Shown here: positions 22,862 through 40,661 of the stretch, piece by piece | Layout: the number at the start of each line of letters is the position of its first letter | How positions within the stretch are numbered: the stretch's first letter is position 1 | From: a virus | Virus record (IMG/VR): IMGVR_UViG_3300008954_000049 | Coordinates: 1-64,000 of that record | DNA length: 64,000 bases | Strand: one strand, 5' to 3' | The notes under the pieces: model-generated | The model's database searches: none | The model's input: the letters and a program-made list of their open reading frames with translations, nothing else | What the model was told of the DNA's origin: nothing | Position numbers and translations under genes: made by a program

Positions 22862-24916
22862 ATGAGCTTGGCGGACATCGCCCTCGCAGCGGGAAAGCAA
22901 GAGCGAACAGGGCAGCAGCCAGCGAACATCATCGAGTTCGTGGAGTCGTCCTGGGGACTCAACATCCCCTTGTATCCCGTGCAGCGGGTCATCCTGAAGG
23001 CCCACTACGGCATCCCCCTCGACGACAACCCGTGGGGCCTGGACCTCACGAAGAAGGTCCCGTCCGACCACCCGAACTACGACGAGATCGCGTTCCTGCC
23101 GGACGACGAGGATGAGGACGAGCCCGGCGAGCTGATCGATCTCCTGCCCGATGAAGTCGAGCCGGAGGAGCCGCTCGACTACCCGGACGCGATGGAGGAC
23201 GAGACCGGCTTCTACAAGTTCCGGGTCAAGATCACCGACTGGCGGCGGGAGAACCCCCGCTACATGACGGAGGCCGAGTACCTCCGGTTCCTGTACGCCG
23301 AGGGCCGCAGCAACATCAAGGAGGTGGTGCCTGGCCGGGAGCGCCGCGAGCTGGTGCTCTCCATCGGCCGTCGTTCCGGCAAGACCTTCATCTGCGCCTG
23401 CGTGATGGCCTACGAGGTCTACAAGCTCATCCTCAAGGACAACCCGCAGCGGTACTACGGCATCCCGAAGACCAACGTCATCCAGCTCATCAGCGTGGCG
23501 ACGGACAAGGACCAGGCGGGTCTGCTCTACAACGAGGCCAGCGGCCACTTCTCGAACTGCGCCTTCTACAAGCCCTACACCGCCAACAACACGATGTCCT
23601 ACGCGAAGTTCCAGTCGCCGGAGGACATCAGCCGGTTCGGCCGGTACGTGGACGACCCCACGGCCAAGGCGACCATCAAGGTCAGCTTCAAGTCGTGCGT
23701 GGCGAAGGGCCTGCGCGGTGCAGGCAACATCGTCATCATCCTCGACGAGCTGGCTCACTTCAACGACGTGGGCCAGAGCGACGCGCTCACGATCTACCGG
23801 GCCGTCAAGCCGTCGCTGGCGGCCTTCTCGCCGAAGGACCCCCGCAACCGGCGGCGGGCCATCGGCAAGGTCGAGGGGCGCATCCTCTCGATCTCGTCCC
23901 CCCTCGGGAAGCAGGGCTTCTTCTTCCGCAAGTTCAGGCAGGGCTACTCCGGCGGCCTGGAGTCGCGGAACATGCTCTGCATCCAGGCCCCGACGTGGGA
24001 GGTGAACCCCACGGTCGAGGCGACGTTCCTCGCGGAGGAGTACGCCACCGACCCGGACAGCTTCTTCACGGAGTTCGGGGCCGAGTTCACGGACCGGACG
24101 AAGGGCTGGCTGAAGCCGGGGCCGCTGCTGCGTTGCGTGGACCCGATGCTCCGGCCCGCGCAGAAGGCCCCGCTGCGTGCCCCGCACTTCATGGGCATCG
24201 ACATCTCGGCGGGCCTGGTGGACGGCGACTACTGCGCGGTCGCCATCGGCCACATCGACGAGGAGCACCGGATCGTCCTCGACTACATCGAGCGCATCCG
24301 GGCAGGTGAGGGCGACTACGAAGACCTGGAGCGGCTGTCCTTCGACGACATCACCGCCTGGCTGTACGCCCTGAGCCGCCGCTTCTACATCGAGAAGGGC
24401 ATGTTCGACCAGTGGGCGGGCATCCCCTTCGAGACGGCCTTGCACAAGCGCGGCCTGACGCAGTGCGAGTCGGTCTTCTTCACGAAGCAGCTCACCAGCC
24501 AGATCTTCGCCAACTTCAAGACCCTGATGTTCGAGCAAAAGCTGGTGCTGTTCGACCAGCCCAACCCGGAGAACCCGAACGCCCACGCCGACTACATCGA
24601 GGAGCTGCTGGAGCTTCAGGCGGAGACGCACAGCAAGTACATCGTGACGGTCGAGGCCCCCAACCAGCCCGACAAGTACGACGACTACTCCGACGCCCTG
24701 GTCCGCATGGTGTGGGAGGCCACCCAGCACATGGGCAAGCGGAAGTACATCGCGGGCACCTCGCGCAAGAAGGGCCGCCACAAGGGCCAGGCGTCGCCGA
24801 CCGAGCTGGCGAAGGCCCGGCGCAAGGCGATGGCCCGCTCTCGGCTCGGTGGTTCGAGCCCCGACCGCCAGCGGTCCCTGATCCGGGGTCGCTCACGCGG
24901 CCGGGGAGGGAGGTGA
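22862..24916 (+). CDS. terL: Terminase large subunit
   Basis: 684 aa. Q-like motif near residue 40 (LYPVQRVIL), Walker A GRRSGKT (about 169-176), Walker B IVIILDELAHF (about 289-299) and coupling motif ISSPLG. The RNase H-fold nuclease begins at FMGIDISAGLVDGDY (near 443). An acidic insert of about 70 residues lies between the Q-like motif and Walker A. The C-terminus is basic. It packages and cuts DNA at the portal. GGAGG precedes the ATG. Confidence 0.92.
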   Translation: MSLADIALAAGKQERTGQQPANIIEFVESSWGLNIPLYPVQRVILKAHYGIPLDDNPWGLDLTKKVPSDHPNYDEIAFLPDDEDEDEPGELIDLLPDEVEPEEPLDYPDAMEDETGFYKFRVKITDWRRENPRYMTEAEYLRFLYAEGRSNIKEVVPGRERRELVLSIGRRSGKTFICACVMAYEVYKLILKDNPQRYYGIPKTNVIQLISVATDKDQAGLLYNEASGHFSNCAFYKPYTANNTMSYAKFQSPEDISRFGRYVDDPTAKATIKVSFKSCVAKGLRGAGNIVIILDELAHFNDVGQSDALTIYRAVKPSLAAFSPKDPRNRRRAIGKVEGRILSISSPLGKQGFFFRKFRQGYSGGLESRNMLCIQAPTWEVNPTVEATFLAEEYATDPDSFFTEFGAEFTDRTKGWLKPGPLLRCVDPMLRPAQKAPLRAPHFMGIDISAGLVDGDYCAVAIGHIDEEHRIVLDYIERIRAGEGDYEDLERLSFDDITAWLYALSRRFYIEKGMFDQWAGIPFETALHKRGLTQCESVFFTKQLTSQIFANFKTLMFEQKLVLFDQPNPENPNAHADYIEELLELQAETHSKYIVTVEAPNQPDKYDDYSDALVRMVWEATQHMGKRKYIAGTSRKKGRHKGQASPTELAKARRKAMARSRLGGSSPDRQRSLIRGRSRGRGGR

Positions 24917-25174: not shown

Positions 25175-25723
25175 ATGCCCGGCCTGCGAGCCACTGCCCG
25201 GACGGCTGCCGACCGGGACCTGAACACGCACCTGAAGCGGGCTGTCGGCTCGGTTCGGGCGGCGCTGGACGTGTGCGGGAGGGCCGCCAGGCGGCGGAAC
25301 CCCGACGCGGAGCTGTTCAGGGAGAAGCAGGACCGCCTGGCCCGAGCCGAGAGGCTCCTCCGCTCCATCGGACACCTGGACGGCTACGCGAGCGACGTGG
25401 ACATCAGGCAGGAGGCTCGCGCACTCTGCTCCTGGCTCGAAGGCCGAGAGCGTTCGGGTGGCGTCACCCGGACCAGGCGGCGGGGGCGGGAGTACCAGGA
25501 GCGGCTGGCGGCCGTCCTCGGCTTTCTGGAGGGCCGCACCGTCAACCTGGAAGACGAGGAGCCTGTGCAGCAGAAGGTGGAGCCGGAAGCTCCAGAGCAG
25601 TCGGCTGAAGGTGAACTGTGGCGGCGAGCGGTCGAGCTGGCTCGCCAGCAGGGTGAGGCGGACAACGACGCCTACGTCCAGACCATCTTCTTGCGGCTCG
25701 CACGCGAGGTGAGCGATGGCTAG
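25175..25723 (+). CDS. Hypothetical helical protein before portal
   Basis: 182 aa. It is Arg-rich and helical in the first half (RDLNTHLKRAVGSVRAALDV), then Glu/Gln-rich. It overlaps the portal gene by 8 nt and abuts the previous gene. No domain recognised. The position suggests a packaging or head-assembly role. Confidence 0.55.
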   Translation: MPGLRATARTAADRDLNTHLKRAVGSVRAALDVCGRAARRRNPDAELFREKQDRLARAERLLRSIGHLDGYASDVDIRQEARALCSWLEGRERSGGVTRTRRRGREYQERLAAVLGFLEGRTVNLEDEEPVQQKVEPEAPEQSAEGELWRRAVELARQQGEADNDAYVQTIFLRLAREVSDG

Positions 25724-27431
25724 GTCGAACGACCCCGACGACACGACGGTCGTCCGCAAGGTGGCAGACCGGAAGGGTGTGACGGTGGGCAAGCCCACGA
25801 AGATCGTCACGTCGTCGATGAAGGCCGCCGCGTGCGGTGTCGGCGGCGGCTACGGCGGTGCTGCGGGCGGCTCCATGATGGGGGCGGGCGGCAACTTCTA
25901 CTCGCCCGAGCTGTCCACCGACTTCCTCGAACTGCCGCAGAGCGACGACGAGAAGCGCAACTTCTACCGCTTCTTCTACGACCACGACCCCTTCGTCGGC
26001 CAGGCCATCGACCTGCTCGACGAGCTGCCGCTCTCGAAGGTCCGCCTCCGCAAGCCGAAGGCCCGCAACGAGAAGCTCGCCTCTGCGTCGCTTCGCTTCT
26101 GCGAGAACTGGGCGAAGCGGCAGGGGCTCCTTCACCGGCTGATGGAGATCAACCACGAGTGGAACCTGCTCGGCGAGGCCCACATCTTCTGCGAGGACAC
26201 CTCGCCGGACATGCCGGAGGACATCGAGTTCGAGATCGTCCGCGAGATCACCAAGGACGGTGAGATCGTCGAGCGCAAGGTCCGGCACGAGGACGCCAAC
26301 GAGCGCATGGCGGCCTGGCTCAAGAAGAACTACAAGGGCTGGACGGCCATCCGCTGCCTGCCCCCCGAGCAGATCCACGTCGAGAGCTTCCCCTTCACGG
26401 ACGAGAAGCTCATCGAGCTGATCCCCGACTCGAAGACGAAGGCGGTCATCAACCGAGCAGCCTCCGGGGACCCCCACGCGGCCCGCGTCGTGAACTCGAT
26501 GCCCGAGGACGTGGTGGCGGCCATCGCCGAGGGGCAGAACATCCCGCTGAACACGGACCCGGAGGCGGGGTCGTTCTACTACCTGATGGCCCGCAAGAAG
26601 TCGCAGTATGAGCCCCGTGGCAAGAGCATCCTGCTCCGCTGCCTGCGGACGCTCGTCTTCCGCGACAAGGTCCGCCAGAGCCTCACGTCCATCGCCTCGC
26701 GGCACATGACGCCCTACCGGCTCATCTACGCCGAGGACATGAACGCGGAGCAGACCGAGGACCTCCGCGAGCAGGTGGACCTGGCCCTTCAGGACCCCGA
26801 CTTCTCCATCATCACCAACTTCCAGGTGACGTGGGAGGAGATGGGGGCGGACCAGCGGCTCCCCGACTGGTCGTGGGTCTTCGACTTCACCGACCGCCAG
26901 ATGTACGCGGGCCTCGGGGTCACCGAGAGCCTGCTCTCCGGCGAGTCCAGCTACTCCGGTGACCGCATCAACCTGGAGGTCATCAACCAGCGGTTCATGC
27001 TCAACCGGGAGACGTTGCAGGGGTTGGTGGAGGAGCAGTTCTTCCGGCCGATGTGCGCCCGCATGGGGTTCGTCGAGGAAGACGAGGACGGCAACCTCCA
27101 GGTCATCGTCCCCCGCTTGTCGTTCACCCGGCTGTCGTTCCGCGACAACACCGAGACGTTCGACGCCCTGATGAACCTCTACCAGAAGGGCTCGCTGGAC
27201 ATCGACACGATCCTCGAACACCTGAACCTCGACCCGGTGACGGTGCGCGAGAAGCTCATGCAGGACGTGGGCACCGTGCAGGACGCGACGTTCAACGAGC
27301 TGTTCCGTGGCCTCTACTCGCGGGTCGGCGACGCCCTGGCGGAGAACAGCGACTTCGCCGAGAAGATCGCCGAGTACCTCGGGCTGAAGTACGAGAAGCC
27401 ACAGGAAGAGGGCGGCGGCCGGTTCGGGTAG
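25716..27431 (+). CDS. Portal protein
   Basis: 571 aa. A Gly-rich N-terminus precedes a typical portal core: FYRFFYDHDPFVGQAIDLLD, then LHRLMEINHEWNLLGEAHIF and a long beta/alpha region ending in helices around RETLQGLVEEQFFRPM. Size, order after TerL and this wing/stem pattern fit the dodecameric DNA-entry portal. It should bind TerL during packaging and the head-tail connector afterwards. Confidence 0.85.
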   Translation: MARSNDPDDTTVVRKVADRKGVTVGKPTKIVTSSMKAAACGVGGGYGGAAGGSMMGAGGNFYSPELSTDFLELPQSDDEKRNFYRFFYDHDPFVGQAIDLLDELPLSKVRLRKPKARNEKLASASLRFCENWAKRQGLLHRLMEINHEWNLLGEAHIFCEDTSPDMPEDIEFEIVREITKDGEIVERKVRHEDANERMAAWLKKNYKGWTAIRCLPPEQIHVESFPFTDEKLIELIPDSKTKAVINRAASGDPHAARVVNSMPEDVVAAIAEGQNIPLNTDPEAGSFYYLMARKKSQYEPRGKSILLRCLRTLVFRDKVRQSLTSIASRHMTPYRLIYAEDMNAEQTEDLREQVDLALQDPDFSIITNFQVTWEEMGADQRLPDWSWVFDFTDRQMYAGLGVTESLLSGESSYSGDRINLEVINQRFMLNRETLQGLVEEQFFRPMCARMGFVEEDEDGNLQVIVPRLSFTRLSFRDNTETFDALMNLYQKGSLDIDTILEHLNLDPVTVREKLMQDVGTVQDATFNELFRGLYSRVGDALAENSDFAEKIAEYLGLKYEKPQEEGGGRFG

Positions 27432-27485: not shown

Positions 27486-30400
27486 GTGGCAGTGCCGACC
27501 CACATCGCGATGAGCAGCTCGGCGTCCCTGGCGCTGATGAAGTTCTTGTCGGACCTGGCGAAGCGCCTGGGGGTCGGCAGGCACGTCTACGTCGTGGGCG
27601 GGGCCGTCCGCAACTTCGTCATCCGCCGCCCGATCAAGGACATCGACGTGGTCATCGACTCGGTGGCCCTGCGCGGCAAGGACTCCGACTGGTTCGCCAA
27701 GGAGGTCGCCAAGGCCATCCCCGCGAAGACCCGCATCCAGACCAACGACTACGGCGTCGCCCTGCTGCACATCGTGGGCGACTGGATGCTCGGGGAGGAG
27801 AACCTCCAGGGCGAGGACATCGAGATCGCCAACGCCCGCATCGAGTCCTACACGGACGGCGGGTACAAGCCCACGCACGTCGAGAAGGCGACCATCGAGG
27901 ACGACGCCCGTCGCCGCGAGTTCACCTTCAACTGCATGGCCGGGGACACCCTAATCCCTACTGAGAAGGGCATCCTCCGCATCGACCAGATCGCCTCTCG
28001 TGACGGGGGGGATCATCAGGACATCCGGTTGACCGTGGCGGGGCAGGACGGCCCTTCGACTGCTGTGGGGTGGCAGTACAGCGGCTACGCCCCCACCCTG
28101 CGGGTGACGACTGAGTGGGGTCATTCTTTCTCCTGCACGCCCCACCATCCGGTTCTGGTCCTTCGGGGCCACGACCACGAGTGGGTTCAGGCGGACCAGC
28201 TTGAGGAAGGTGACCTGCTCTGTGTGCCCGTGCGGCAGGTGGCGAGGCGGACGCCCCTTGCTCTCGACCTGCCCGATCCGGTACAGCCCAAGCGTGGGCG
28301 ACTCAAGGATGTCCGCAAGCCTGAGAGGATGACGCCCGAACTGGCGTTCCTGATCGGGTGCATCGTGGCCGAGGGGTCGAACACCCACAAGCGGGTGTCG
28401 TTCAGCAACTCTGATCCAGCCCTCATCTCCCACTACGTCGAGTGCTTCCACGCCACCTTCGGGTTCCAGCCCTCCCGCAACAAGGTGGTCGAGAAGGGGT
28501 CCGTCCGCATCTTGCGTGGGGTGGAGTTTGTCGCCAGCGCAGACGGCTACGACATCTACGCCGACAGCAAGGCCGTGGTCGGATGGCTGGAAGACCTCGG
28601 CCTGTACTGCGGGGGGTCCAAGGACGGCAAGTCAGCCTCCCACCACAAGATCGTCCCGTGGTCCATCCTGCAAGCTGACGAGCGAAGTCAGTGGGCGTTT
28701 CTTGCGGCCTATCTGGAGGGTGACGGCTCGATCCGGCCCGAGACGGGGCGTATCACCTACTGCTCGGCGTCCCCCCATGTTCGCCAGCAGTTGCAGGTGC
28801 TTCTCGGTGCTCACGGCATTTTGAGCAAGGTGAAGGGCAGGTTCGTCTACATCAACGCTGTGGATTCGGCTCTCCTGTGGGAGAAAATCCAACCGTGGAT
28901 GGTCACCAAGGGGTTCGATTACACCCGGCGGGACAACAAAGCCCGCAACCGCTACGGCATCCCCGCAGAGTACATTCGGGGGTTCCTTGCCGGGCGGAAG
29001 CAGGACACCAGCCGGGCCGTCTACGCCACGGACGGGGATGGGTTCAGAACCCTCCCCGATGTCCATGAGCCTGTTCGGAAGGTTCAGCGGCTTCTCCACG
29101 ATGCTCATGCCCGAGGGGGTTTCGACGGGTTCCTGGCGAGCCTCAAGGCCATCAGCCCGGACGAGTTTGCCAAGCTCCAGCGGTTGTTCGACCTCGGTTA
29201 CCAGTACGTCGAGGTCACGTCGGTTGAGGATGCGGGGCAGCAGGACGTATTCGACATCTCGATGGGCGAGGGGGTCGAGCCTGCTTTCGTGGCGAACGGG
29301 GTGGTGGTCCACAACACGCTGATGTGGCGGCTGCAAGACCTGGCGAACGGCCCGGACAAGGCCGAGATCATCGACCTGACCGGGTGCGGGCTCGCCGACC
29401 TGGCGGCGGGCTCGATGAAGTGCCCGTCCAGCCCGGACAAGACCTTCACCGACGACGCGACCCGCATGGTCCGGGCCATCAAGTTCATCGTGAAGTACGG
29501 CTTCAAGCTGACGCCCGACACCGAGGCGGCCATCCGGCGGCACAAGGGCAAGCTCAAGAACATCAAGCCGGGCCACCTGAGCACCATGCTCGTCGATCTC
29601 CTGCGGGAGCCCACTGCGAAGAAGGCTCTGGAGGAGATGCAGCGGCTCGGGCTGCTCGACGAGATCAAGGACATCGCGCAGAGCAACGGGGCGATGGCGA
29701 ACGCCCTGTTCAACGTGGCCGATGAGACGCGCTCGGATGCCCTGTTCGCGATGATGGACATGGGGCTCCCGAGCGGGAAGCGGCTCGGGTTCCTCGACCG
29801 CTACCAGGTCGCCCGCCTGCGGGAGATCGCGGTGGACCTGTCGTTTGACGCCACCGACCAGTTCATCGCGGCCCTCAAGCAGCCCGGCAAGGTGCTGGAC
29901 ATGCGGTCGCTCATCAAGGAGTTCGGGCTCCGGGGCCAGCAGATCGCACAGGTCACCGACCTGGCTCGCCGTCACCTGCTCGACAGTCCGTCCCTCGTGA
30001 CCGACAAGCGGCGGCTGACGCAGCGCGTCAGGCTCGACCTTCAGGGTGGCCGCACGGCGGCGATGGCCCCGACCTGGTTCCCCGATGAGGGCGACCAGGT
30101 GACGAGCATCGAGGCGGGCGACGGGTGGGCCTACATCGGCTTCGACTCCGGCCAGGAGGTCGGCCTGCCGACCGACGAGCGGCGGAGCCAGGGCTGGAAG
30201 GCAGCTCGCACGGCGGCCGTGAAGGGCTCCGGGGCGAAGGTGGGGCTGATGCTCCCGCTGCCGGAGGAGTTGGCCGCGAAGTTCCCGAGCCTCGGCGACG
30301 AGGACGACAGCCCGCCCCACTGCACGCTGCTCTACGTGGGGGACGTGCGCGGGCGAGAGGCCGAGTTCCTGGCAGCCGTGCAGGCCGAGGCCAGCCAGTA

Positions 30401-33400
30401 CCGGCCGATGCGGGCCACCATCCAGCCCCTCGACTACTTCGAGCACCCGGAGAAGGAACGCCGAGTGGCGTACTGCCCGGTGCGGTTCGACGGGTACATG
30501 GACCAGCTTCGAGACGGCATCCGGGTTCGGCTGACCGATGCCGGGTTCGCCCTGAAGGACCGCTCGCTCCTCATCTACAACCCGCACATCACCCTCGCCT
30601 ACCTGGACGGGCTCGACTCGAAGTACGAGGGCCAGGTGCCCACGGGTTCGTGGACGGTCGAGGGCCTGGCGGTGTGGGGGATGGCGAAGCCCGAGACGTA
30701 CCCGCTGTCCCGCACGGCGAAGAAGTTCGAGCTGGAGATCGGCGACCCGCTGTTCACGGGCAAGTACCTCAACAGCCCCGGCCGCATCGAGGGTTTCGGC
30801 GAGAACGAGAAGGGCGACCCCACGGTCATCGTTCGCAAGCGTCCGAAGAAGGACCAGGGCGGGCAGGGGGCCAAGAAGGAGGTCAAGCTCTTCAAGGTCC
30901 GTTACGACAAGGACCAGGCCGCCCGCGACAAGGCGGAGAAGTCCGCTCGTGAGTTCGGCACGGACGAGGCCCGCAAGGAGTACCTGCGGGAGCACCCTGG
31001 AGCTGACCCGAAGAACCACACCGTCACCGACGACGCGCCCGAGGCCGAGGATGACAAGCCGAAGCGCGGGAAGCTGCGGTCGGCCGTCAGCGGTGCAGCG
31101 GCTATCGCGAAGAAGGTCATCAAGCGGAAGGTCGAGCGGGGCAAGGACGTGGCCTCCGGGGTGGCGAAGCTCCTCAAGGGCGACGTGCCAGACCCGAAGG
31201 AGCGTGCCCGCATCGCTCGGCTGCTCATCCGCGAGGTGATGAAGGGCGGCATCAACGCCGCCATGTACGTCGCGATCCCGCCCCCGCCCGGCTACATCTT
31301 CGCGAAGAAGGTGGTCGCCGAGGCCACCAAGCTGCTCGACAAGAAGCTCGAAGCCCGGTTCGGCGTCAGCAAGGTGGGCGGCGAGCTGACCGAGGACGCC
31401 CTCGCGCAGATGGTGCAGGACTCGCTCAACGAGGCTGTGGACGCTGTGGGGCAGTCGAAGGAGGCCAACGCGGCCATCCGGCGGCTGTGCGACCGCTACA
31501 ACCAGGCGACCATGCACCGCGTCGTCCTCGAAGTCGGTGCCGACGACATCACGAAGAGCGTCCCCATCGACTCCCTCGCCCTGCTGTTCAACAGGCAGTT
31601 CGCCGACGCCGTGCAGGCGTCCGGGGAGGAGGAGACGATCGTTCCGTTGCACCTGCTGGCCGAGACGCAGCCGTCTCCGGTGGACAGCACGATGCCGCTC
31701 TACGGCCAGGGCCGCCCGGCCCTGCCTCGCGGTGAAGCGGGCGAGGTCGAGATCCACAGGATGCTCGTGGACCGGGTGGCCTCCCGGTACGCGCAGCGGT
31801 TCGGCCCGAACACCCCGCTGATGGAGCACGAGGGCAACAAGGTCAAGTACCGGGTCAAGTCCGACAGCGACGCCATCCTCGCAGGCGTCTACTACGGCCG
31901 AGCCCGCATCGGCGGGCTCCACGCCAGCGTGATGCGCTACCCCGAGCGGGAGACGTGTGGGCGGGATGTCCTGAAGCTGCTGGCGAAGTACCCGCAGGTC
32001 GAGGACACCAGCCGACCTCGGTGGGTGGCGAGCGACGGGGAGGAGCGGACGAACACCCGAGCCCTCCAGGTCTACAAGGCGTTCATCACCGACGAGAGCA
32101 AGCAGGGCCTCGGCATCGGCAAGGCGATGTACCTGGCCGTCATGGTCGAGTGGTTCAAGAAGGTCGGCCCCTTCCTGTTCATGCCCTACGAGTGCTCCGG
32201 CGGCTCCGGCACCAGCACCGCTGCCGGGCGGGTGTGGAAGAGCCTCGCGCGCGACTTCCCCTCCTCCGGCAACGTCATCGCCGTGCTCCGGGCACCGACC
32301 CTGCCCGGCGGCCTGAAGACGGCGGCCAAGGGCACGAAGAAGAAGGTCAAGAACCAGAAGGGCGAGCAGGTCACGGTCTACGAGTACAGCGAGGGCCAGG
32401 TCCAGCACCGCAACCGCGAGAAGGCGAAGAAGGTCGAGAAGCTCCGGCAGAACCTCGACAAGCTGCGCGGCCAGATCGGCAAGGACCTCAAGTCGAAGGA
32501 CGAGAAGACCCGGCTGTGCGCCCTGGCCGTGGGCCTGATGAACGACACCTACGAGCGGGTCGGCAACCCCGGTTCGGCGAAGGACGGCCACTTCGGGGTC
32601 ACCGGCTGGCAGGCGAAGCACGTCACCCTCTCCGGCGGCAAGGCGACCATCAAGTACGTCGGCAAGTCCGGGGTGAGCCAGACGAAGACCACCAGCGACT
32701 CCGGCCTGGTCAGCGGGCTCCGCGAGGCCCTGAAGGGCAAGTCCGGCACCGACCCCGTGTTCGAGGGCGTCGAGGCAGGCGACGTGAACGCCTACCTGAA
32801 GCCCCACGGCATCACCGCGAAGGACATCCGGGGGCTGCACGCCAACCGCGAAGTCCAGACCCGGCTCAAGGCCATCCGGGGCAAGGGCGGCAAGCTCCCG
32901 ACCGACAAGAAGGAGCGGGAGCAGAAGCTCAAGAAGGAGTTCCAGCAGGCGCTCGATGAGGCGGCCAAGGAGGTGGGGCACGAGGCCAGCACGCTCCGCA
33001 GCCAGTACCTCGTGCCGGGCCTCGAAGACACCTTCATGCGGGACGGCACGGTCAAGGAGAAGCTCGACAAGCAGGGGCGGCTCTCGTGGGGCCTGCGGCA
33101 GATCCTCGGCCGAGCCGACGAGATCGTCGCGGTCTTCGGGTGGGGCGAGTCCGAGATGACCAGCGTGAACGAGGACCCCGAGAAGGACCTCGGCGGCGGG
33201 CTCATCGGCTACGTCTGGCGGACCGGCCGCCAGTGGTACAGCATGGCGAAGGGCTCGATGCAGTCGGAGAAGCGGCGGAACCGGGCGCACGGCGTCTACG
33301 GTCTTCGTCACCCGATGCGCCTCGCGGCCGACAAGGTCGCCATCATCTCCATCTACAACGCCTGGCCGGAGGAGGTGGGCTACACCAGCCCGGACCCGCT

Positions 33401-35903
33401 GGTCAGCCTGGTGGGCTTCGAGGGGCTGATCTCCAGCCTGACCGCCTACGAGTGGGCGCTCATCAACGACATGGACCGGGCCGCCGGGGGTGCCGAGCAC
33501 ATCCTGGTGGCGGACGACGGCACGTTCACCTGGCGGGGCTACCCGGTGATGCCCGACGTGGTCACCGAGCTTCAGGGGGCGGGCTACCTCGGCAACGCAG
33601 AGGACGGGAAGATCGGCCTGTCCTGGCAGCTCATCGGCAAGCGGCAGCTCTACAAGCAGGCCACCCGTCGCCTGGCCGCCAGGTGGTTCGTCGAGGGGGC
33701 GTCTCCCCGCCTGGTCTGGCGGGCTCCGCGAGGTTCCGACCCGTGGAAGCTGGCACAGAAGGCCGGGATCAACATCTTGTCGCACATGGACTTCGTGGCG
33801 GGGTACGAGGCCGGGGGCAAGCTCGTGGCTGCCTTGTTCGACTCGTCGGATTCGGGTGACCAGGAGTGCTACGCCTTCGACATCGTCGTGGACCCGGATG
33901 GCTGGCAGCGAAGGGGGCTCGGAGGGAAGCTGATGGACATCGCCATCAGCCAGTACGACGACCTGGTCGAGCCGTTCCCCGACATCCAGTTCTGCCTCGA
34001 TGCGGTGAACCCGCACGCGGTTCGGATGCTCAAGCAGCGAGGGTTCGTGGAGACAGGTCGGGAGCAGGGGCACACCCTGATGACCCGGCGGGCCACGAAG
34101 TCGAAGGCCGAGAAGGAAGAGGAGGAGGTCGAGCGCCTCAACCGCCGCAACCCCACGAAGAAGCCCCCGCGTCGCGATCTCCGCCGGAACCGGATGAAGG
34201 AGGACGACCCGGACATCGAGGGCTTCGGGGCGGACGGCGACCGGGACCTGAGCAACAACTACAAGAAGCGGGCGACCCTGGCCGCCAACCGCGTCGCTCT
34301 CCGCTGGCTGATGGCCGAGGGCGAGCCGAGCCAGAAGCGCAAGCCCGGCGACGTGTGGCCGTCCGACGACGGCACCTGGAACGCGATGAACGCGAAGGGC
34401 CAGGTGCGCAACGACTTCGGCAAGGACAAGGACTCGAAGGCGAAGGCCGAGGCCTACGCGAAGGGCGACGCCGACTCCCCGGAGGAGGCCGAGGAAGCCG
34501 TGGCCGAGAAGGCCAAGGAGGACGAGGCCAAGAAGAAGGAGCAGGCGAAGGCCGACAAGGAGAAGTTCACGGCCGAGATCACCGACCTGGCCGAGAAGCT
34601 CTACGGGGACAAGGTCATCACGGAGGAGACGGCTCTGCTGCTCATGGAGAAGGCCGACTCGGCCGAGTTCCATGCGGCGTACAAGGCGGAGATGAAGCAG
34701 CTCCGCGAGCTGTTCGACGACTTCGGCGTGACGGTGTCGGCGATGAAGGACATCGCGAAGGACCCCTTCAAGGGCGTGGACGGGGACGACATCGACGAGC
34801 TGGCCGAGGCCGTGGTCCAGGCGAAGGCCCAGGAGGCCCTGCTGCTCGACCCCACCAACGTCGGCGGCCAGCCCCTCTCCTCCGAGCAGCTCGACGATGA
34901 CGCCCGGACCGAACGGGCGATGCAGGCGATGAAGCTCTACCGGCGGGTGAGCCCGGACCAGCGAAGGCAGGTGGCCGAGGACGCGGCGGCGAAGCTCGGT
35001 GACTTCGAGAAGGGCAGCCCCGAGCACGACGAGCTGAACGCGATCATCGACGGCATCCACGCGGCGGCGGTGCTCAACGACGAGGACTTCGACGCGAAGC
35101 ACCCGGACGGCCGCCTGGTGCGGGAGCCGCTCAACAGCAAGCTCAAGCTGGTGCTCAAGCAGATGGTCAAGCAGGGCAACGCCGAGGTGTTGTTCCTGAA
35201 GGACTCGTCGAAGGTCTACGCGGCGGAGGGCCGGGCGGCTGTCCGCGACGCGATGGGCAAGCTCGACGACGAGGGCCTGGCGGCGATCTCCGAGGGCACC
35301 TCGTGGGAGCCGCTGGTCAAGGCGCTCGCCGACAACCCGGACATGGCTCCCGAGGTGCAGGAGTACCTGCGGGCCATGATCCGCGACATGGGCGTGATGC
35401 ACATGACCACCGTGCAGGGCGTCGCGGCGGCCATCACCAGGAAGAAGCGGGACCCCGCCAACCTCCCCGAGCTGTTCGACCAGACGGCGGACGAGGTGGA
35501 GGACAAGACCCGCGAGGCCGTGGATTCGGCGGTCGATGAGGCCCTCCAGGCGTGCCTGGAGGAGGGCAAGACGCAGGCCGAGTGCATGAAGCGGTCGCGG
35601 GAAGCTGTGGTCCGGGCACAGGCCGAGGCGACGGCCGACGCCATCGACGACATGGACGTGGAGCCCGACGCGCAGGACACGGCGGTTGCAGTGCTGCGGG
35701 CCGTGGCCGGTGGGGCAGACCTCTCGCTGCTGGACGACCCTTCAGTGCGACCGGAGCGGTCGCCCGAGGAGCGGAAGCGGGACTTTCTCGAAAATGTGAA
35801 GGACCCCGCCGAGCGAAAAAGAATCGAGCAGATGTCGCCTGATGAGTTCACGGCGATGGAAAAAGCGGTTCTTTCGGAGGACGAGCAAGACCTGGTGGCC
35901 TGA
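27486..35903 (+). CDS. 2805-aa multi-enzyme virion-region protein with intein
   Basis: GTG start after GTAGGAGC. Domains in order: (1) Cca/PcnB-type nucleotidyltransferase, VVGGAVRNF with KDIDVVID, resuming after the intein to about residue 860. (2) A 461-aa intein at 150-610. (3) A 2H phosphoesterase with HCTL near 945 and HITL near 1034. (4) A GNAT fold, about 1425-1600 (KQGLGIGKAM). (5) A topoisomerase IB-like domain, about 1620-1860, with R1676, K1727, R1782, H1832 and Y1841. (6) A second GNAT, about 2095-2208 (WQRRGLGGKLM). (7) A 590-residue charged helical tail. R-(V/L)-A-x-R-(Y/W) motifs lie at domain borders near 1427, 2061 and 2265. It lies between portal and prohead protease, so packaging into the capsid and cleavage into separate enzymes is plausible but inferred. 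Confidence 0.85.
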   Translation: MAVPTHIAMSSSASLALMKFLSDLAKRLGVGRHVYVVGGAVRNFVIRRPIKDIDVVIDSVALRGKDSDWFAKEVAKAIPAKTRIQTNDYGVALLHIVGDWMLGEENLQGEDIEIANARIESYTDGGYKPTHVEKATIEDDARRREFTFNCMAGDTLIPTEKGILRIDQIASRDGGDHQDIRLTVAGQDGPSTAVGWQYSGYAPTLRVTTEWGHSFSCTPHHPVLVLRGHDHEWVQADQLEEGDLLCVPVRQVARRTPLALDLPDPVQPKRGRLKDVRKPERMTPELAFLIGCIVAEGSNTHKRVSFSNSDPALISHYVECFHATFGFQPSRNKVVEKGSVRILRGVEFVASADGYDIYADSKAVVGWLEDLGLYCGGSKDGKSASHHKIVPWSILQADERSQWAFLAAYLEGDGSIRPETGRITYCSASPHVRQQLQVLLGAHGILSKVKGRFVYINAVDSALLWEKIQPWMVTKGFDYTRRDNKARNRYGIPAEYIRGFLAGRKQDTSRAVYATDGDGFRTLPDVHEPVRKVQRLLHDAHARGGFDGFLASLKAISPDEFAKLQRLFDLGYQYVEVTSVEDAGQQDVFDISMGEGVEPAFVANGVVVHNTLMWRLQDLANGPDKAEIIDLTGCGLADLAAGSMKCPSSPDKTFTDDATRMVRAIKFIVKYGFKLTPDTEAAIRRHKGKLKNIKPGHLSTMLVDLLREPTAKKALEEMQRLGLLDEIKDIAQSNGAMANALFNVADETRSDALFAMMDMGLPSGKRLGFLDRYQVARLREIAVDLSFDATDQFIAALKQPGKVLDMRSLIKEFGLRGQQIAQVTDLARRHLLDSPSLVTDKRRLTQRVRLDLQGGRTAAMAPTWFPDEGDQVTSIEAGDGWAYIGFDSGQEVGLPTDERRSQGWKAARTAAVKGSGAKVGLMLPLPEELAAKFPSLGDEDDSPPHCTLLYVGDVRGREAEFLAAVQAEASQYRPMRATIQPLDYFEHPEKERRVAYCPVRFDGYMDQLRDGIRVRLTDAGFALKDRSLLIYNPHITLAYLDGLDSKYEGQVPTGSWTVEGLAVWGMAKPETYPLSRTAKKFELEIGDPLFTGKYLNSPGRIEGFGENEKGDPTVIVRKRPKKDQGGQGAKKEVKLFKVRYDKDQAARDKAEKSAREFGTDEARKEYLREHPGADPKNHTVTDDAPEAEDDKPKRGKLRSAVSGAAAIAKKVIKRKVERGKDVASGVAKLLKGDVPDPKERARIARLLIREVMKGGINAAMYVAIPPPPGYIFAKKVVAEATKLLDKKLEARFGVSKVGGELTEDALAQMVQDSLNEAVDAVGQSKEANAAIRRLCDRYNQATMHRVVLEVGADDITKSVPIDSLALLFNRQFADAVQASGEEETIVPLHLLAETQPSPVDSTMPLYGQGRPALPRGEAGEVEIHRMLVDRVASRYAQRFGPNTPLMEHEGNKVKYRVKSDSDAILAGVYYGRARIGGLHASVMRYPERETCGRDVLKLLAKYPQVEDTSRPRWVASDGEERTNTRALQVYKAFITDESKQGLGIGKAMYLAVMVEWFKKVGPFLFMPYECSGGSGTSTAAGRVWKSLARDFPSSGNVIAVLRAPTLPGGLKTAAKGTKKKVKNQKGEQVTVYEYSEGQVQHRNREKAKKVEKLRQNLDKLRGQIGKDLKSKDEKTRLCALAVGLMNDTYERVGNPGSAKDGHFGVTGWQAKHVTLSGGKATIKYVGKSGVSQTKTTSDSGLVSGLREALKGKSGTDPVFEGVEAGDVNAYLKPHGITAKDIRGLHANREVQTRLKAIRGKGGKLPTDKKEREQKLKKEFQQALDEAAKEVGHEASTLRSQYLVPGLEDTFMRDGTVKEKLDKQGRLSWGLRQILGRADEIVAVFGWGESEMTSVNEDPEKDLGGGLIGYVWRTGRQWYSMAKGSMQSEKRRNRAHGVYGLRHPMRLAADKVAIISIYNAWPEEVGYTSPDPLVSLVGFEGLISSLTAYEWALINDMDRAAGGAEHILVADDGTFTWRGYPVMPDVVTELQGAGYLGNAEDGKIGLSWQLIGKRQLYKQATRRLAARWFVEGASPRLVWRAPRGSDPWKLAQKAGINILSHMDFVAGYEAGGKLVAALFDSSDSGDQECYAFDIVVDPDGWQRRGLGGKLMDIAISQYDDLVEPFPDIQFCLDAVNPHAVRMLKQRGFVETGREQGHTLMTRRATKSKAEKEEEEVERLNRRNPTKKPPRRDLRRNRMKEDDPDIEGFGADGDRDLSNNYKKRATLAANRVALRWLMAEGEPSQKRKPGDVWPSDDGTWNAMNAKGQVRNDFGKDKDSKAKAEAYAKGDADSPEEAEEAVAEKAKEDEAKKKEQAKADKEKFTAEITDLAEKLYGDKVITEETALLLMEKADSAEFHAAYKAEMKQLRELFDDFGVTVSAMKDIAKDPFKGVDGDDIDELAEAVVQAKAQEALLLDPTNVGGQPLSSEQLDDDARTERAMQAMKLYRRVSPDQRRQVAEDAAAKLGDFEKGSPEHDELNAIIDGIHAAAVLNDEDFDAKHPDGRLVREPLNSKLKLVLKQMVKQGNAEVLFLKDSSKVYAAEGRAAVRDAMGKLDDEGLAAISEGTSWEPLVKALADNPDMAPEVQEYLRAMIRDMGVMHMTTVQGVAAAITRKKRDPANLPELFDQTADEVEDKTREAVDSAVDEALQACLEEGKTQAECMKRSREAVVRAQAEATADAIDDMDVEPDAQDTAVAVLRAVAGGADLSLLDDPSVRPERSPEERKRDFLENVKDPAERKRIEQMSPDEFTAMEKAVLSEDEQDLVA
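27933..29315 (+). other. Intein with LAGLIDADG homing endonuclease
   Basis: 461 residues in frame. It starts with Cys (CMAGDTLIPTEKG) and ends VVVHN, followed by Thr as the +1 residue. Splicing block B-like TPHHPVLV is present, and two LAGLIDADG motifs occur (LIGCIVAEGS near 288, LAAYLEGDGS near 405). It interrupts the conserved RRREFTFN|TL motif of the nucleotidyltransferase, the typical active-site placement of inteins. Its DNA uses more A/T at third codon positions than the flanks, which suggests later acquisition. Splicing joins N149 to T611. Confidence 0.92.
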
Positions 35904-36017: not shown

Positions 36018-36752
36018 ATGGCCCAGAAGCTCAGCAAGCAGGCCGCGCTCGACGCGGGGAACATCCTCGACAAGGCAGCGGATCTCATCCAGAAGAACGC
36101 CGAGTCCTTCGGCATCAAGCCGGAGATCGCGCAGAAGTTCGGCTTCCAGTGCGACCTCCTGTCGGACCACATCGCCAAGCGGGCCGAGATCGACATCGAG
36201 AAGCTCGCCACCGAGCGCAAGACCGCCCTCACGGGTGACGACGTGTTCGACGAGGGCAAGCACATCGGCGAGGACCCCGAGCAGATCGGCGAGGAGAAGT
36301 CCGGCCCGAAGGAGCAGGAGGCCGACGAGTCCTACATGGGCGGCCACTTCAGCCAGCAGGAGAACCGCGAGCTGCGCGAGAAGCAGGAGGGCGGCGAGCT
36401 GCCCGGCGGCTCCGACCGGCAGACGGCCCGGCCCGGCGTGCAGGCGGCCCTGGAGAACGGCAAGAAGCTCGCCGCGCTCTACATGGACATCAACGGTGCC
36501 GCGACCCGCTGCGCCGCCAGCGATCACGAGGCCGTCAAGACCCTCGGCGAGCGGCTGGCCGCCGCCGGACTCGACGTGCTCCAGTTCCAGACCCGGCTGC
36601 TGGAGGGCTCCGAGGACGCCGAGCGCCTCGCCACGCTGACGCGGGCCGCCGCGCACGTCATGCCGCACCTCGCGGGCGACGTGCCCCCGGCCGCCGCCGA
36701 CAAGCTCGCCAAGATGGCCGACATCGTCGCGGGGATCGCGAAGGCGGCCTGA
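36018..36752 (+). CDS. Hypothetical helical virion-region protein
   Basis: 244 aa. It is all-helical with Ala/Lys/Glu-rich N-terminus (KQAALDAGNILDKAADLIQ), an acidic middle (EDPEQIGEEKSGPKEQEADE) and a helical C-terminus. Its own terminator-promoter junction upstream marks it as the head of a new transcription unit that leads to protease, scaffold and capsid. It could be a scaffold-like or internal head protein. Not recognised. Confidence 0.6.
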   Translation: MAQKLSKQAALDAGNILDKAADLIQKNAESFGIKPEIAQKFGFQCDLLSDHIAKRAEIDIEKLATERKTALTGDDVFDEGKHIGEDPEQIGEEKSGPKEQEADESYMGGHFSQQENRELREKQEGGELPGGSDRQTARPGVQAALENGKKLAALYMDINGAATRCAASDHEAVKTLGERLAAAGLDVLQFQTRLLEGSEDAERLATLTRAAAHVMPHLAGDVPPAAADKLAKMADIVAGIAKAA

Positions 36753-36778: not shown

Positions 36779-37681
36779 GTGGGGAATCGCCACGCCACCG
36801 TCTTCGTCGATTACCAGCAGCGGGCCTCCGAGTTCGCTGTTGGTGACCTGGCGTACCCGCTTGCGGGTGGAGCGACGGACGAGTCGCAGGCGGGGACGGT
36901 GACTGCGGTGTGGCCTGGCATCGGCCAGGTGGACATCGACTTCCCGTGGGGTTCCGGCCGCTACCCGGTCGAAGACGTGCAGAGGGTGACCGACATCATC
37001 ACGAAGACGCCCGATCCAGAGCACAGCACGGTTCCCGGCGGGGCGGGGACCGTGAGCGTGCCTGGTGGGCCTGTGGCGAAGTCGGCTGCCCGCCTGTCCA
37101 TCGACCGGATCAGCCACGCCTGGATCAAGTCGGCCCTCTACTGGGCCAGCAAGGACCGCCACTACCGGGGCACGAAGGCCGAACTGGACGGCGGGAAGTA
37201 CGCCTGCCCGAAGTGCAAGGCCGACGACGAGGGCAACCCCATCCACCTCCGCCCGGCGAACTACAAGCGGGTGGACGGCCAGAGCCACCGCCTGCTCGGG
37301 TGCCCGCACTGCATGTTCCTCATCAAGCGGGACCAGATCATCGGCGACCCGGCCTACGAGCCCAACGACGACGGCCAGCAGAACGACTTGCAGGCGGAGT
37401 GGGACGGCACGATGGACCAGGGGTTCGACCTGGTCCAGCAGGTGAAGTCGGCAGCCGACGAGCGCACCCTCACGGTGAAGTTCAGCGGCAACGGCGACGG
37501 GGCCGAGTCGATGGCCCGGATGCTCGCGTACATCGGCAAGATCGGTGGTGTCGGGCACAGCTTCGAGATCGTGGTGGACCCGGACGACTCCGAGTACCGC
37601 AAGAGCTTCGGCTTCGACGGTGACGGCAGCGACCGAGTCCTGGCCTGCGACCTCGACGGCAACCCGGTGGAGGCTGCCTGA
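36779..37681 (+). CDS. Zinc-ribbon protein before prohead protease
   Basis: 300 aa, GTG start after AGGAGG. An N-terminal KOW/SH3-like beta segment (GDLAYPLAGGATDESQAGTV) precedes a Cys pair set YACPKCKAD ... LGCPHCMF, a likely zinc ribbon (residues about 140-185). The C-terminus is alpha/beta (LTVKFSGNGDGAESMARML). KSAARLSIDRISHAWI resembles the R-x-A-x-R-x motif family weakly. It overlaps the protease start by 1 nt. Function unknown. Confidence 0.6.
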   Translation: MGNRHATVFVDYQQRASEFAVGDLAYPLAGGATDESQAGTVTAVWPGIGQVDIDFPWGSGRYPVEDVQRVTDIITKTPDPEHSTVPGGAGTVSVPGGPVAKSAARLSIDRISHAWIKSALYWASKDRHYRGTKAELDGGKYACPKCKADDEGNPIHLRPANYKRVDGQSHRLLGCPHCMFLIKRDQIIGDPAYEPNDDGQQNDLQAEWDGTMDQGFDLVQQVKSAADERTLTVKFSGNGDGAESMARMLAYIGKIGGVGHSFEIVVDPDDSEYRKSFGFDGDGSDRVLACDLDGNPVEAA

Positions 37682-39147
37682 TGGCCTTCCTGAAGTACGC
37701 CAGGGCTGAGGTCGTCACCCCGCACGTCGGACGTGCGGGCTGGGCGAAGGTTCGCACGGCCGCCAAGGCCGCTGCGGAGGTGTCGGAGAACCTCATCGAC
37801 CGCGCGTCGGAGATCTTCGGCAAGCCCTTCAACCCGAGCGACTACCTGCTGACCCACGCGACCATCGTGGCGTCGGTGGACACCTTCGAGCCGCCGAACA
37901 CGAAGCTCGGCAAGCACTCCGAGGGCGGCTTCAGGATCAACCGGAAGTACGGCAAGTTCCGGGTCAAGCTCGGCTGCGACAAGTTCATCAACAACAACCT
38001 CGACGCCTGGGACCGGGACGTTCTGCTCAAGAGCTACCGGACCTTCATCGGGGCGCAGAACTTCGTCGAGCACGTCCAGGTCGAGGAGCTGTCGAAGGGC
38101 CGGGTCATCGACGCGGTCGCTCGCGACATCGGCGACTCGGTCTACGTGGACATCCTCATCGCCACGGACCGCAAGCACGCGGACCTGGTCGAGGCCATCG
38201 AGTCCGGCAAGATGGGCACCCTGTCGATGGGCTGCACCGTCGATGGCACCATCTGCACGAAGTGCGGGCACTGGGCCGCCGACGAGACGGAGATGTGCCC
38301 CCACATCAAGTACGAGAAGGGGAACGTCTTCTTCGACGAGCAGGGGCGTCAGCACCGCGTCGCGGAGCTGTGCGGTCACCCGAGCCTCGACCCGACCGGC
38401 GGCGTCCACTTCATCGAGGCGTCCTGGGTCGGCACCCCCGCCTTCACGGGCGCGGTCCTCCGCAACGTGCTCGCCATCCACCAGGGCGACAAGCTCGGCA
38501 AGGCCGCCTCGGCCATCCTCGCGACTCCCCCGGAGGAGTGGACGAAGGGCACCCGCCGCAAGGCCGCTGCCCTCGCCTTCGGCGGCGACCACTTCATGGC
38601 CGGGTGGGGCGACGAAGACGACGACGTGGACGCCCCGGCCGAGAAGAAGGACGAGGGCGGCCCGTTCGACGACATGGAACGTGAGCTGACCGATCACATG
38701 CGGGATCGGGTCAAGAAGAAGCTCAAGAAGGACATGGACCAGAAGGACCTCGACGAGGCCCTCGGTCCCGAGGAGTCTTCGGCGGCTCCCAACGACAACG
38801 TGGTCAAGCAGGCGGCGGTGTACGACGCCACTGTGGCTTTCCTCTGTCGGCACGCTTCGAGCGACACCGACCTGATGGACAAGGTGGCCCTACTGCACGC
38901 GGAGTACGGGGTGGAGATCCCCGTGCCTGTGTACCGGGCTGCTGCGCAGCTCGGCGACATCGGCGAGTACAGCTCGTCGAGTCAATTCCTCCGGGCTTGT
39001 CGAGCGGCGCTCGGCCGCAAGCCCACAACCGCCGAGGCACAGACCTTGATCAAGCTCGGCAAGCTCATCTCGCGGCGAGGCCAGGATCGCAACGGGAGCA
39101 GGAACCCATCCCTGGCAGTCGCCACAGGCAAGGAGACGAAGCGATGA
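37681..39147 (+). CDS. Prohead (capsid maturation) protease
   Basis: 488 aa. The core at residues 100-200 has FVEHVQVEELSKGRVIDA (candidate catalytic His), VYVDILIATDRKHADLVEAI and GKMGTLSMGC (candidate catalytic Ser), the order found in herpes-like phage prohead proteases such as T4 gp21 relatives. A CTKCGHW...MCPH insert may bind zinc. The C-terminal 200 residues are charged and helical and may act as a built-in scaffold. It lies just before the scaffold candidate and capsid genes, as expected. Confidence 0.72.
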   Translation: MAFLKYARAEVVTPHVGRAGWAKVRTAAKAAAEVSENLIDRASEIFGKPFNPSDYLLTHATIVASVDTFEPPNTKLGKHSEGGFRINRKYGKFRVKLGCDKFINNNLDAWDRDVLLKSYRTFIGAQNFVEHVQVEELSKGRVIDAVARDIGDSVYVDILIATDRKHADLVEAIESGKMGTLSMGCTVDGTICTKCGHWAADETEMCPHIKYEKGNVFFDEQGRQHRVAELCGHPSLDPTGGVHFIEASWVGTPAFTGAVLRNVLAIHQGDKLGKAASAILATPPEEWTKGTRRKAAALAFGGDHFMAGWGDEDDDVDAPAEKKDEGGPFDDMERELTDHMRDRVKKKLKKDMDQKDLDEALGPEESSAAPNDNVVKQAAVYDATVAFLCRHASSDTDLMDKVALLHAEYGVEIPVPVYRAAAQLGDIGEYSSSSQFLRACRAALGRKPTTAEAQTLIKLGKLISRRGQDRNGSRNPSLAVATGKETKR

Positions 39148-40661
39148 GCACTCGTCAGCGCATGACGTGGGCGGCCCTCGACCGTGAGGCGGCTGCTCCC
39201 CCCGCAACCCCCGGCTACGGAGTCGAGGACCAGGACCACCCGGCCCACACCCAGGACGATCCGGGCAAGGACGACTACAACATCGGCGGCCCCTCGGAGT
39301 TCGCCGAGGACGTTCACCCGCCGCCCTACGGGGACAGCGGCCCGCCCGCGACGCCCGGCTACGGGGTCGAGGACCAGGACCACCCGGCCCACACCGGGCA
39401 GGTCGGCCGCCAGGCCAACCTGATGCAGCTCGTCCGGCGCAAGTCGGCCAAGTGCCTCGTGCTCGCGCGGGCCACGCTCGGCAAGACCGCGTCGTGGGAC
39501 GACATCGAGAACCAGGCGTTCGGCTACATGAGCATGGACGACACCGCCCTGGAGGCCTCGGTCGAGCGCCTCGGCGGCGACTTCCTCTCGATGGAGGAGG
39601 AGCTGCTCGGGATGTTCCCCGAGGACGAGGCCCCGGCCCTGGACCCGATGGAGGCCCGCCTGGCCGCGATGGAGGCCGAGCTGAAGGCGCTCAAGAGCGC
39701 CGACCAGAACGACCCCGGCGGCGAGACCCTCGGCACCTCCGGCAAGTCCGAGCAGGAGGCGAAGAAGGAAGAGGCGGCCGTCTCGGACAAGGCCGCGAAC
39801 CCCGTCATGGCGATGTTCGACGCCTTCGACCTGGACGGCGACGGCTTCGTGACGGCCGAGGACTGGACCGGCCCCCGCGCCATGTTCGCGTCCCTCGACA
39901 CCGACAACGACGGCATCATCGCTCGGGCCGAGGTCCTCGCGGGCTGCGAGAAGCTCGACGGCAAGATGCAGGAGATGTGCGAGGCCAAGAAGAAGGAGGG
40001 CTCCGAGGACGAGTCCGACGACGACGAGGGCTCCGACAAGGAGGCGTCCGACAAGACCGCCTTCGGCCACGTCGCCGAGTTCGACGACGACGAGCTGGAG
40101 ATGCTCCAGGCCATGCAGTACGGCATGGACGACGAGCTGGTGGACGACGGCGAGATCGCCTGCGGCGACGTGATGGCCTCGAAGAACGCCTCCGACGACG
40201 AGGACGACGAGGAGGGCTCCGACAAGGAGGCCGCCAAGAAGTCCGAGGACGACGAGGACGAGGGCTCCGACGACGAGGGCGGTGACGACGAGGGCTCCGA
40301 CGACGAGGGCGGCGACGACGACGAGGACGAGGGCGGCTCCGACAAGGAGGCCTCCGACGCCGAGTTCTTCGCCACCGGCTTCGACCCGATGGGCCTCTCG
40401 GACGGGACCGAGCTGACGGCCGCCGACAAGGCCGCCTTCAACGAGGTCTTCGGCTCCGAGGACGAGGACGAGGGCGACGACGAGGGCAGCGACAAGGAGG
40501 CCAGCCTCGCGGCCATCCTCCAGCCGCAGGCCCGCAAGGCGTCCAAGGGCGTCAAGTCGGTCGGCCAGGTCCCGAAGGTCGCCTCCAGCGGCGGCAACGA
40601 GATCGCCGAGCTGTCGAACCTCTGGGCCTCCGACCCGGACGTGAGCGGCAGCTTCTCCTGA
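39144..40661 (+). CDS. Acidic EF-hand scaffold candidate
   Basis: 505 aa, start at 39144 overlapping the protease stop. The N-terminus holds two copies of an 18-residue unit (PATPGYGVEDQDHPAHT core). Two EF-hand loops follow: DLDGDGFVTAED and DTDNDGIIARAE. The rest is extremely acidic with four copies of GSDKEA(S/A). The last 40 residues are basic and could bind capsid. Position between protease and capsid, acidity and repeats fit a scaffolding protein removed by proteolysis. Calcium-controlled folding is suggested by the EF-hands. Confidence 0.65.
   Translation: MSTRQRMTWAALDREAAAPPATPGYGVEDQDHPAHTQDDPGKDDYNIGGPSEFAEDVHPPPYGDSGPPATPGYGVEDQDHPAHTGQVGRQANLMQLVRRKSAKCLVLARATLGKTASWDDIENQAFGYMSMDDTALEASVERLGGDFLSMEEELLGMFPEDEAPALDPMEARLAAMEAELKALKSADQNDPGGETLGTSGKSEQEAKKEEAAVSDKAANPVMAMFDAFDLDGDGFVTAEDWTGPRAMFASLDTDNDGIIARAEVLAGCEKLDGKMQEMCEAKKKEGSEDESDDDEGSDKEASDKTAFGHVAEFDDDELEMLQAMQYGMDDELVDDGEIACGDVMASKNASDDEDDEEGSDKEAAKKSEDDEDEGSDDEGGDDEGSDDEGGDDDEDEGGSDKEASDAEFFATGFDPMGLSDGTELTAADKAAFNEVFGSEDEDEGDDEGSDKEASLAAILQPQARKASKGVKSVGQVPKVASSGGNEIAELSNLWASDPDVSGSFS
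39199..39251 (+). repeat. 18-aa coding repeat, copy 1
   Basis: Encodes PPATPGYGVEDQDHPAHT. A second copy lies exactly 144 nt downstream (39343-39395) with the same protein sequence and synonymous changes, so it is selected at protein level. Confidence 0.8.
39343..39395 (+). repeat. 18-aa coding repeat, copy 2
   Basis: Second copy of the scaffold N-terminal unit, in the same frame as copy 1. Confidence 0.8.

Follow-up and report, generated by a model that had tools for sequence, protein, structure and literature searches.

Type IB topoisomerases (TopIB) of poxviruses and bacteria, such as those of variola virus (2h7f/3igc), Deinococcus (2f4q/3m4a) and Pseudomonas aeruginosa (PAT), have in common the fold of the catalytic domain, a catalytic pentad of the form RKR(H/N)Y and a KxxR box. 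We take the spacing of the pentad in the vaccinia enzyme to be R130-37-K167-56-R223-42-H265-9-Y274. PMC2666729 likewise gives R130, K167 and Y274. According to the same source, Tyr-70 and Tyr-72 of the poxvirus enzyme contact bases of the target site; P. aeruginosa TopIB remains able to relax DNA, though at lower efficiency, when residues 1-98 are removed, and a Tyr-to-Phe change at its active site leaves it inert (PMC2666729). As the N-terminal clamp domain is dispensable for relaxation in the P. aeruginosa enzyme, we do not treat it as defining TopIB.

TopIB is also known in the jumbo phages Motura, NCTB, phiRSL1, Lu11 and PaBG (PMC7824862). A second class of relevant proteins is that of the polyvalent proteins of phages, large chains that may unite GNAT, 2H and nucleotidyltransferase domains and that typically adjoin virion genes (Iyer et al. 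2017, PMC5512222). TopIB is not among their domains in the main text of that paper, where the word topoisomerase appears in one reference title only. Lastly, giant phages package and eject many head proteins (PMC10052503, PMC13282480). In SPN3US and phiKZ enzymes are packaged with the genome and head proteins are cut by the prohead protease, and the available portions of these two accounts do not mention a packaged TopIB. A largely open-access literature search found no paper describing TopIB in a phage polyvalent protein or fused to a head-cluster protein. Thus jumbo-phage TopIBs and polyvalent proteins are already known, and we have not found described any head-cluster protein that carries TopIB as a fused module.

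A mosaic reading frame between the portal and protease genes

The stretch of DNA analyzed, which we call the window, comprises positions 1 to 64,000 of the record IMGVR_UViG_3300008954_000049, a viral fragment of 64.7 kb. The genes and domains of the head cluster described below all lie on its plus strand. The cluster runs from the terminase large subunit (22862-24916; phrog_2, 1e-20) through the portal protein (25716-27431; phrog_16240, 3.6e-30), a mosaic ORF that begins immediately downstream of it (27486-35903), two uncharacterized genes, the head maturation (prohead) protease (37681-39147; phrog_18299, 3e-13) and two more uncharacterized genes to the major capsid protein (MCP, 41588-42460; phrog_2522, 3.6e-48), and this order is kept in relatives. 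We refer to the interval between portal and protease as the slot; its downstream gene (36018-36752) is conserved, with no function assigned.

The MCP is strikingly conserved. It is matched by 435 viral contigs, the top 80 of them with identities of 85% or more, and the proteins that neighbor it diverge to 30-50%. The gene at 38997-40661, between protease and capsid, has an EF-hand; downstream (59864-62332) lies a gene for a protein with a von Willebrand A domain.

The mosaic ORF is one continuous frame of 2,805 aa, with a GTG start and an AGGAG six bases upstream. Its GC3 is 0.92 along the whole length; the frame is fixed by GC3 and homology, so that a frameshift or antisense artefact is excluded, and an antisense ORF of 2,256 aa is a high-GC shadow. 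Pfam places along it, in order, a poly(A)/CCA nucleotidyltransferase split by a LAGLIDADG intein, a 2H phosphoesterase, the TopIB catalytic core and a weak GNAT. The first half of the nucleotidyltransferase head (27585-27932; PF01743, 6.4e-13) has an intact GGxVR...DID signature, and NCBIfam models for CCA tRNA nucleotidyltransferase match with scores under their cut-offs. The second half, the RNA-binding part (29316-29765), matches PF12627 (2.9e-06) and, over aa 625-761, NF009814. The intein (aa 150-610, 27933-29315; PF14890 and PF14528, each 3.1e-12) is inserted at the RREFTFN/T active-site motif, and its boundaries are precise, FTFN-[C150...HN610]-TLMWRL in the window corresponding to FTFN-TLLWRL in the intein-free relative L003. 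Splicing is predicted to leave a protein of 2,344 aa, in which the residue numbers after 610, given here for the 2,805-aa ORF, would fall by 461. The nucleotidyltransferase of L017 also contains an intein (aa ~753-1199). Elsewhere, portal ORFs of about 1,100-1,200 aa are found in L104, L105, L107, L110 and L111, where the portal match covers half only; the long portal ORFs among L104-L112 suggest inteins in the portal too.

The 2H phosphoesterase domain (30306-30677; PF13563, 7e-11) has both HxTL motifs, as PHCTL and PHITL. There are two GNAT-like stretches, flanking the TopIB domain. The first (aa 1430-1600, 31773-32285) is 72% identical with L004/L005 and has the QGLGIGKAM motif only; it gave no match in Pfam or in PDB sequence searches and is an unconfirmed GNAT candidate. 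The other (aa 2111-2188, 33816-34049) matches the acetyltransferase family PF13508 at 2.3e-04, under its Pfam cut-off. It is followed by the slot-specific KPPRxDLR tail (aa 2204-2275, 34095-34310), which ends in a copy of the peptide RVALRWL.

Thus several unrelated enzyme domains (nucleotidyltransferase, 2H phosphoesterase, TopIB and GNAT) are joined in one chain, and the gene sits among virion genes, from portal to head maturation protease, and is kept in relatives. These are the characteristics of a polyvalent protein, and the GNAT, 2H and nucleotidyltransferase domains are met in the large chains beside virion genes of PMC5512222. In contrast to those, the commonest recognized module in the family of the window is TopIB, and a slot-specific tail marks the carrier. 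The combination of GNAT, 2H and nucleotidyltransferase in the same chain is also the pattern of injected conflict proteins (PMC5512222), which would fit an injected TopIB that acts as an anti-host effector, altering the supercoiling of the host chromosome for takeover or to blunt a topology-sensitive defense. Yet the enzyme would act equally well on phage DNA, and the free TopIBs of related phages suggest a house-keeping role, so that we consider an anti-host function quite improbable.

The TopIB domain and its catalytic residues

The TopIB domain extends over aa 1619-1865 (32340-33080). Pfam family PF01028 matches aa 1640-1836 at 85.5 bits (4.7e-24) compared to a curated cut-off of 23.7, which rules out a chance occurrence of the pentad. 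A search of the PDB with a profile of five relatives returned TopIBs, those of an archaeon (2.4e-18), Deinococcus (2e-17), variola (3.9e-12) and human (1.2e-9). An AlphaFold model of the domain built on 23 relatives has a pLDDT of 85. When this model was searched with Foldseek the first 22 matches were all TopIB (variola at 3.7e-12), followed by XerH, the best recombinase, at 1.3e-3. VIA-align gave Z scores of 23.1 for variola TopIB (5.8 Å over 244 residues) and 22.4 for Deinococcus TopIB (2.6 Å over 212 residues), and 13.1 for XerH.

The R2 box of the domain is KDIR, which is the KxxR of a TopIB and not HxxR, and there is no match to PF00589 (Phage_integrase). With fold scores that are also closer to TopIB, identity as a tyrosine recombinase or integrase is rejected, and there can be very little doubt that the domain is a topoisomerase IB. 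A sequence-only reading of this DNA had placed a TopIB-like domain at 32340-33060, and had named as checks a profile comparison with TopIB and tyrosine recombinases and the overlay of a structural model on vaccinia TopIB; the Pfam match, PDB profile and predicted fold all uphold the assignment. The same observations bear on the idea that TopIB chemistry is employed here for strand transfer, for example to process DNA branches or hairpins ahead of packaging, or to leave a protein covalently linked to a genome end. TopIBs and tyrosine recombinases do have common catalytic chemistry and fold, the gene is near those of the portal and terminase, and the choice of substrate may differ where the N-terminal domain is mostly missing (see below). 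Nevertheless the KxxR box, the lack of a Phage_integrase match for the window domain and a fold clearly nearer to TopIB make strand transfer improbable.

The five catalytic residues can be assigned as R1691 (32556-32558) in its ERVGN context, K1727 (32664-32666), R1782 (32829-32831) within the KDIR box, H1832 (32979-32981) and the nucleophile Y1841 (33006-33008). The spacing is thus R1691-36-K1727-55-R1782-50-H1832-9-Y1841. The sequence-only reading had claimed the full pentad, and was correct for the last four residues; the arginine that it had chosen, R1676, lies in EKTRLCALA, and the catalytic arginine is R1691. Its further points hold good. The gap of nine residues between histidine and tyrosine is that assumed for vaccinia (H265/Y274), and the ERVGN and YVGKSGV contexts fit, since a profile alignment to variola TopIB pairs RVGND with RFGKM and GKSGVSQ with GKDKVSH, as well as KDIRG with KDLRT, VGHEAS with VGHTPS and QYLV with AYMA. 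All five residues are invariant in 27/27 distinct domain sequences (26 orthologues and one divergent paralogue). The phage domain has histidine at the position where the four bacterial TopIBs compared have asparagine. Pairwise dN/dS for the domain is 0.16-0.40, values that are rough because GC3 is high, yet show constraint.

Ahead of the catalytic core the model has a beta hairpin only, and the usual N-terminal domain of the DNA clamp is mostly absent. In the window the sequence upstream belongs to a different module, and the shortest TopIB ORFs (L024 and L031, 335-336 aa) begin ~30 residues before the core. The short ORFs and the hairpin-only model together indicate that the family is without most of the usual N-terminal domain. 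A remnant is retained as a Tyr-x-Tyr strand, Y1632 and Y1634 (32379-32387), which align with poxvirus Tyr-70 and Tyr-72 and are invariant within the huge-phage clade. The domain therefore resembles the pox enzymes in these tyrosines as well as in its H-to-Y spacing; it differs from poxvirus and bacterial TopIBs in the loss of the bulk of the N-terminal domain, in being either a module of a mosaic protein or a short ORF by itself, and in belonging to a separate, well-supported clade. Since the truncated P. aeruginosa enzyme relaxes DNA (PMC2666729), activity of the phage domain is plausible, and we think it likely to be an active topoisomerase. The loss of most of the clamp could also be read as the mark of a degenerate or purely structural domain, in which the TopIB fold is kept for DNA binding only; but with the pentad and the DNA-contact tyrosines invariant across the family, and under purifying selection, this is hardly credible.

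Distribution of the TopIB in huge phages

How is this TopIB distributed? A contig of 110,937 bp is 99.9% identical over the mosaic protein. The nearest named record is LR745208.1, an unannotated 485-kb uncultured phage that is 52% identical over the TopIB domain, and no other named phage record was found near the window. With the TopIB profile 31 viral loci were recovered, the longest contig measuring 485 kb, and searches with the portal or MCP reached a 619-kb contig. A profile search of genome contigs yielded a single relative, whose huge-phage contig is part of a MAG. PF01028 matches above cut-off in 17/17 huge-phage records searched, about half of which were originally found via TopIB; the nine that were reached via portal or MCP also match, in some cases only through a divergent copy at another site.

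In a tree of 26 domains the huge-phage TopIBs form a clade separate (100/99) from the bacterial enzymes, from the PaBG/Lu11/NCTB type and from a second, divergent huge-phage TopIB; the deeper joins are not settled and branches are long. The divergent paralogue, with RPGK and FRKL contexts, is found in L033 (6874-9369), G001 (81025-84036), L250 and L026 (aa 671-934), and keeps the same pentad in three of these. In L026 this second match shares an ORF with the main TopIB. The TopIBs of PaBG, Lu11, NCTB and related Rhizobium and Xanthomonas phages are like the window domain in being phage-encoded and having the same pentad. They differ in that they are single-enzyme ORFs of about 560-690 aa (about 560 aa in PaBG, Lu11 and NCTB) with their own N-terminal region, in which the head-cluster tail was not seen, and they are about 23-27% identical over full-length matches.

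Within the family, a deeper-branching subset has a strong TopIB located >100 kb from portal and MCP (loci L027, L029, L030 and L035; records G003, G014, G015 and G018), so that a link to the virion does not hold for every member of the family. Such genes, standalone or far from the head cluster, together with the single-enzyme genes of isolated jumbo phages and the match in every huge-phage record searched, favor the main rival to a function in the particle. This would have an active TopIB work in the infected cell, in late replication, transcription or packaging, its position in the head cluster reflecting only late, packaging-coupled expression. We regard this as possible but rather unlikely, because the TopIB of the slot lineage shares its ORF with a tail confined to the slot, in some cases also with the adjacent head-cluster protein, and a free enzyme would need neither.

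The slot and its conserved tail

To reduce the bias of a TopIB-based search, slots were collected by adding the results of portal and MCP searches to the TopIB-derived loci, keeping one locus per portal sequence. This gave 41 non-redundant loci that show both portal and protease, a pool still enriched for TopIB. TopIB lies between portal and protease in 23 of the 41 and is absent from the remaining 18, and is thus rejected as an obligatory component of the slot. By contrast the tail of ~70 residues is found in all 41. Its consensus is TKTxAEKEDEEVERLxRxxPKKKPPRxDLRRxRxxxDDxD...DKDLSLNYKRVA, and in 22/23 TopIB slots it is within the TopIB ORF itself. The sequence-only reading had spoken of a virion-region protein. 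That setting is supported by the position between portal and prohead protease and by a tail universal to the slot; the mosaic of several enzymes with its intein, and the variable presence of TopIB as a module of the slot, had been missed. In two huge phages (362 and 421 genes, from simple-script gene calls) the tail occurs once per genome, in the slot, and it was not found in TopIB proteins encoded at other places.

Where TopIB is absent the tail is often part of a protein of ~220 aa with an N-terminal helical domain. In LR745208.1 this helical domain is a separate ORF directly before the TopIB-tail ORF, and in L026 and L089 it lies inside the TopIB ORF. The TopIB ORF is in addition fused in frame to the next head-cluster protein, the counterpart of 36018-36752, in L050, L056, L089, L090 and L094. 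Relatives' TopIB ORFs span 335-2,813 aa. Among 22 mosaic proteins almost every invariant column belongs to either the TopIB domain or the tail, and Pfam recognizes TopIB in 21, the nucleotidyltransferase in nine and 2H in four; slot proteins without TopIB have almost no enzyme recognizable by Pfam. The TopIB is thus fused onto a conserved head-cluster protein, most simply through insertion of TopIB and other modules between the parts of a small protein adjacent to the portal. Searches of PHROGs with the small slot protein and its neighbors gave nothing significant, and when the small protein was compared with PDB folds nothing matched at E <= 0.001.

The helical domain has a CPDCIRKHFLTIEA motif (L086, 12398-13048, with homologues in L054, L076, L078, L081 and L101). 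In BFVD it matches uncharacterized proteins of giant eukaryotic viruses, from Fadolivirus (44% identity, E 1.6e-6), Yasminevirus (37%) and Tetraselmis virus (30%). It thus appears to be a domain of uncharacterized role common to huge phages and giant viruses.

Domain junctions and protein ends repeatedly bear a short peptide of consensus (A)xRVAxR(W/Y/F)L. In the window it is found at 31773-31793 and 34290-34310, and in 15290-15601, 46765-47172 and 47175-50066. The mosaic slot proteins have 22 copies, where shuffles predict 0.45. Phage G001 (436 kb) has 19 copies (0.9 expected from shuffles), 10/19 near termini where 21% is expected; the second TopIB protein of this phage has strict copies, and UvrD-like and SNF2-like helicases have looser ones. 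LR745208.1 has three copies only (0.6 expected). The peptide could be a targeting or packaging tag. Both slot and non-slot TopIB proteins (L004, L029 and L039) contain HExxH-like stretches such as AHEMGHHL, which suggest zinc metallopeptidase modules, although Pfam reports none in L004.

Discussion

Our analysis leads us to propose a near single-domain, catalytically competent TopIB that is fused to a conserved portal-adjacent head protein, the giant polyvalent protein being loaded into the head and reaching the host together with the genome; for this proposal as a whole we judge the chances to be about even. The encoding of the enzyme in the head cluster, between portal and capsid genes, means that it may travel inside the particle. 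Whether the slot protein is packaged there is finely balanced, the case resting on the tail, the fusion, the neighbors and the precedent of the giant phages (PMC10052503, PMC13282480), from which packaging in the clade of the window is inferred. No characterized capsid-targeting signal or protease site was identified for the mosaic slot protein. The tail could serve assembly rather than packaging. Moreover, TopIB is missing from 18 slots and so is not needed for assembly in every member, and, with almost no recognizable enzymes in slot proteins without TopIB, a general cargo slot is no more than a possibility.

More tentatively, and at somewhat below even chances, the small head protein with its KPPRxDLR/RVAxRWL tail would be the carrier for enzyme modules, and the TopIB an ATP-independent DNA swivel that is injected with a genome of several hundred kb. 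The slot protein would be loaded into the prohead through the tail, the RVAxRWL peptides or both, and the neighboring protease might then cut it. Y1841 would form a transient 3′-phosphotyrosyl link and allow the DNA to swivel about a nick without ATP, and torsion in the very long phage genome might in this way be released at packaging, on leaving the head or during first transcription. The sequence-only reading had likewise suggested that the TopIB could relax or resolve supercoils during ejection or packaging. The other modules could act in the same infection. The nucleotidyltransferase and 2H modules may repair tRNA ends cut by host defenses, as has been argued for jumbo phages (PMC7824862), and GNAT may modify host proteins.

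A TopIB covalently attached to a conserved portal-adjacent protein would open to direct test how torsion is handled in very large phage genomes as they enter the head, leave it and are first transcribed. If the proposal is correct this would be, to our knowledge, the first virion-borne swivel enzyme in phages. The slot shows, within a single clade, how a head-cluster protein of ~220 aa may have expanded to 2,800 aa through the acquisition of enzymes. In its tail it offers a specific candidate for a signal that directs protein packaging in these uncultured phages, which form a widespread group.
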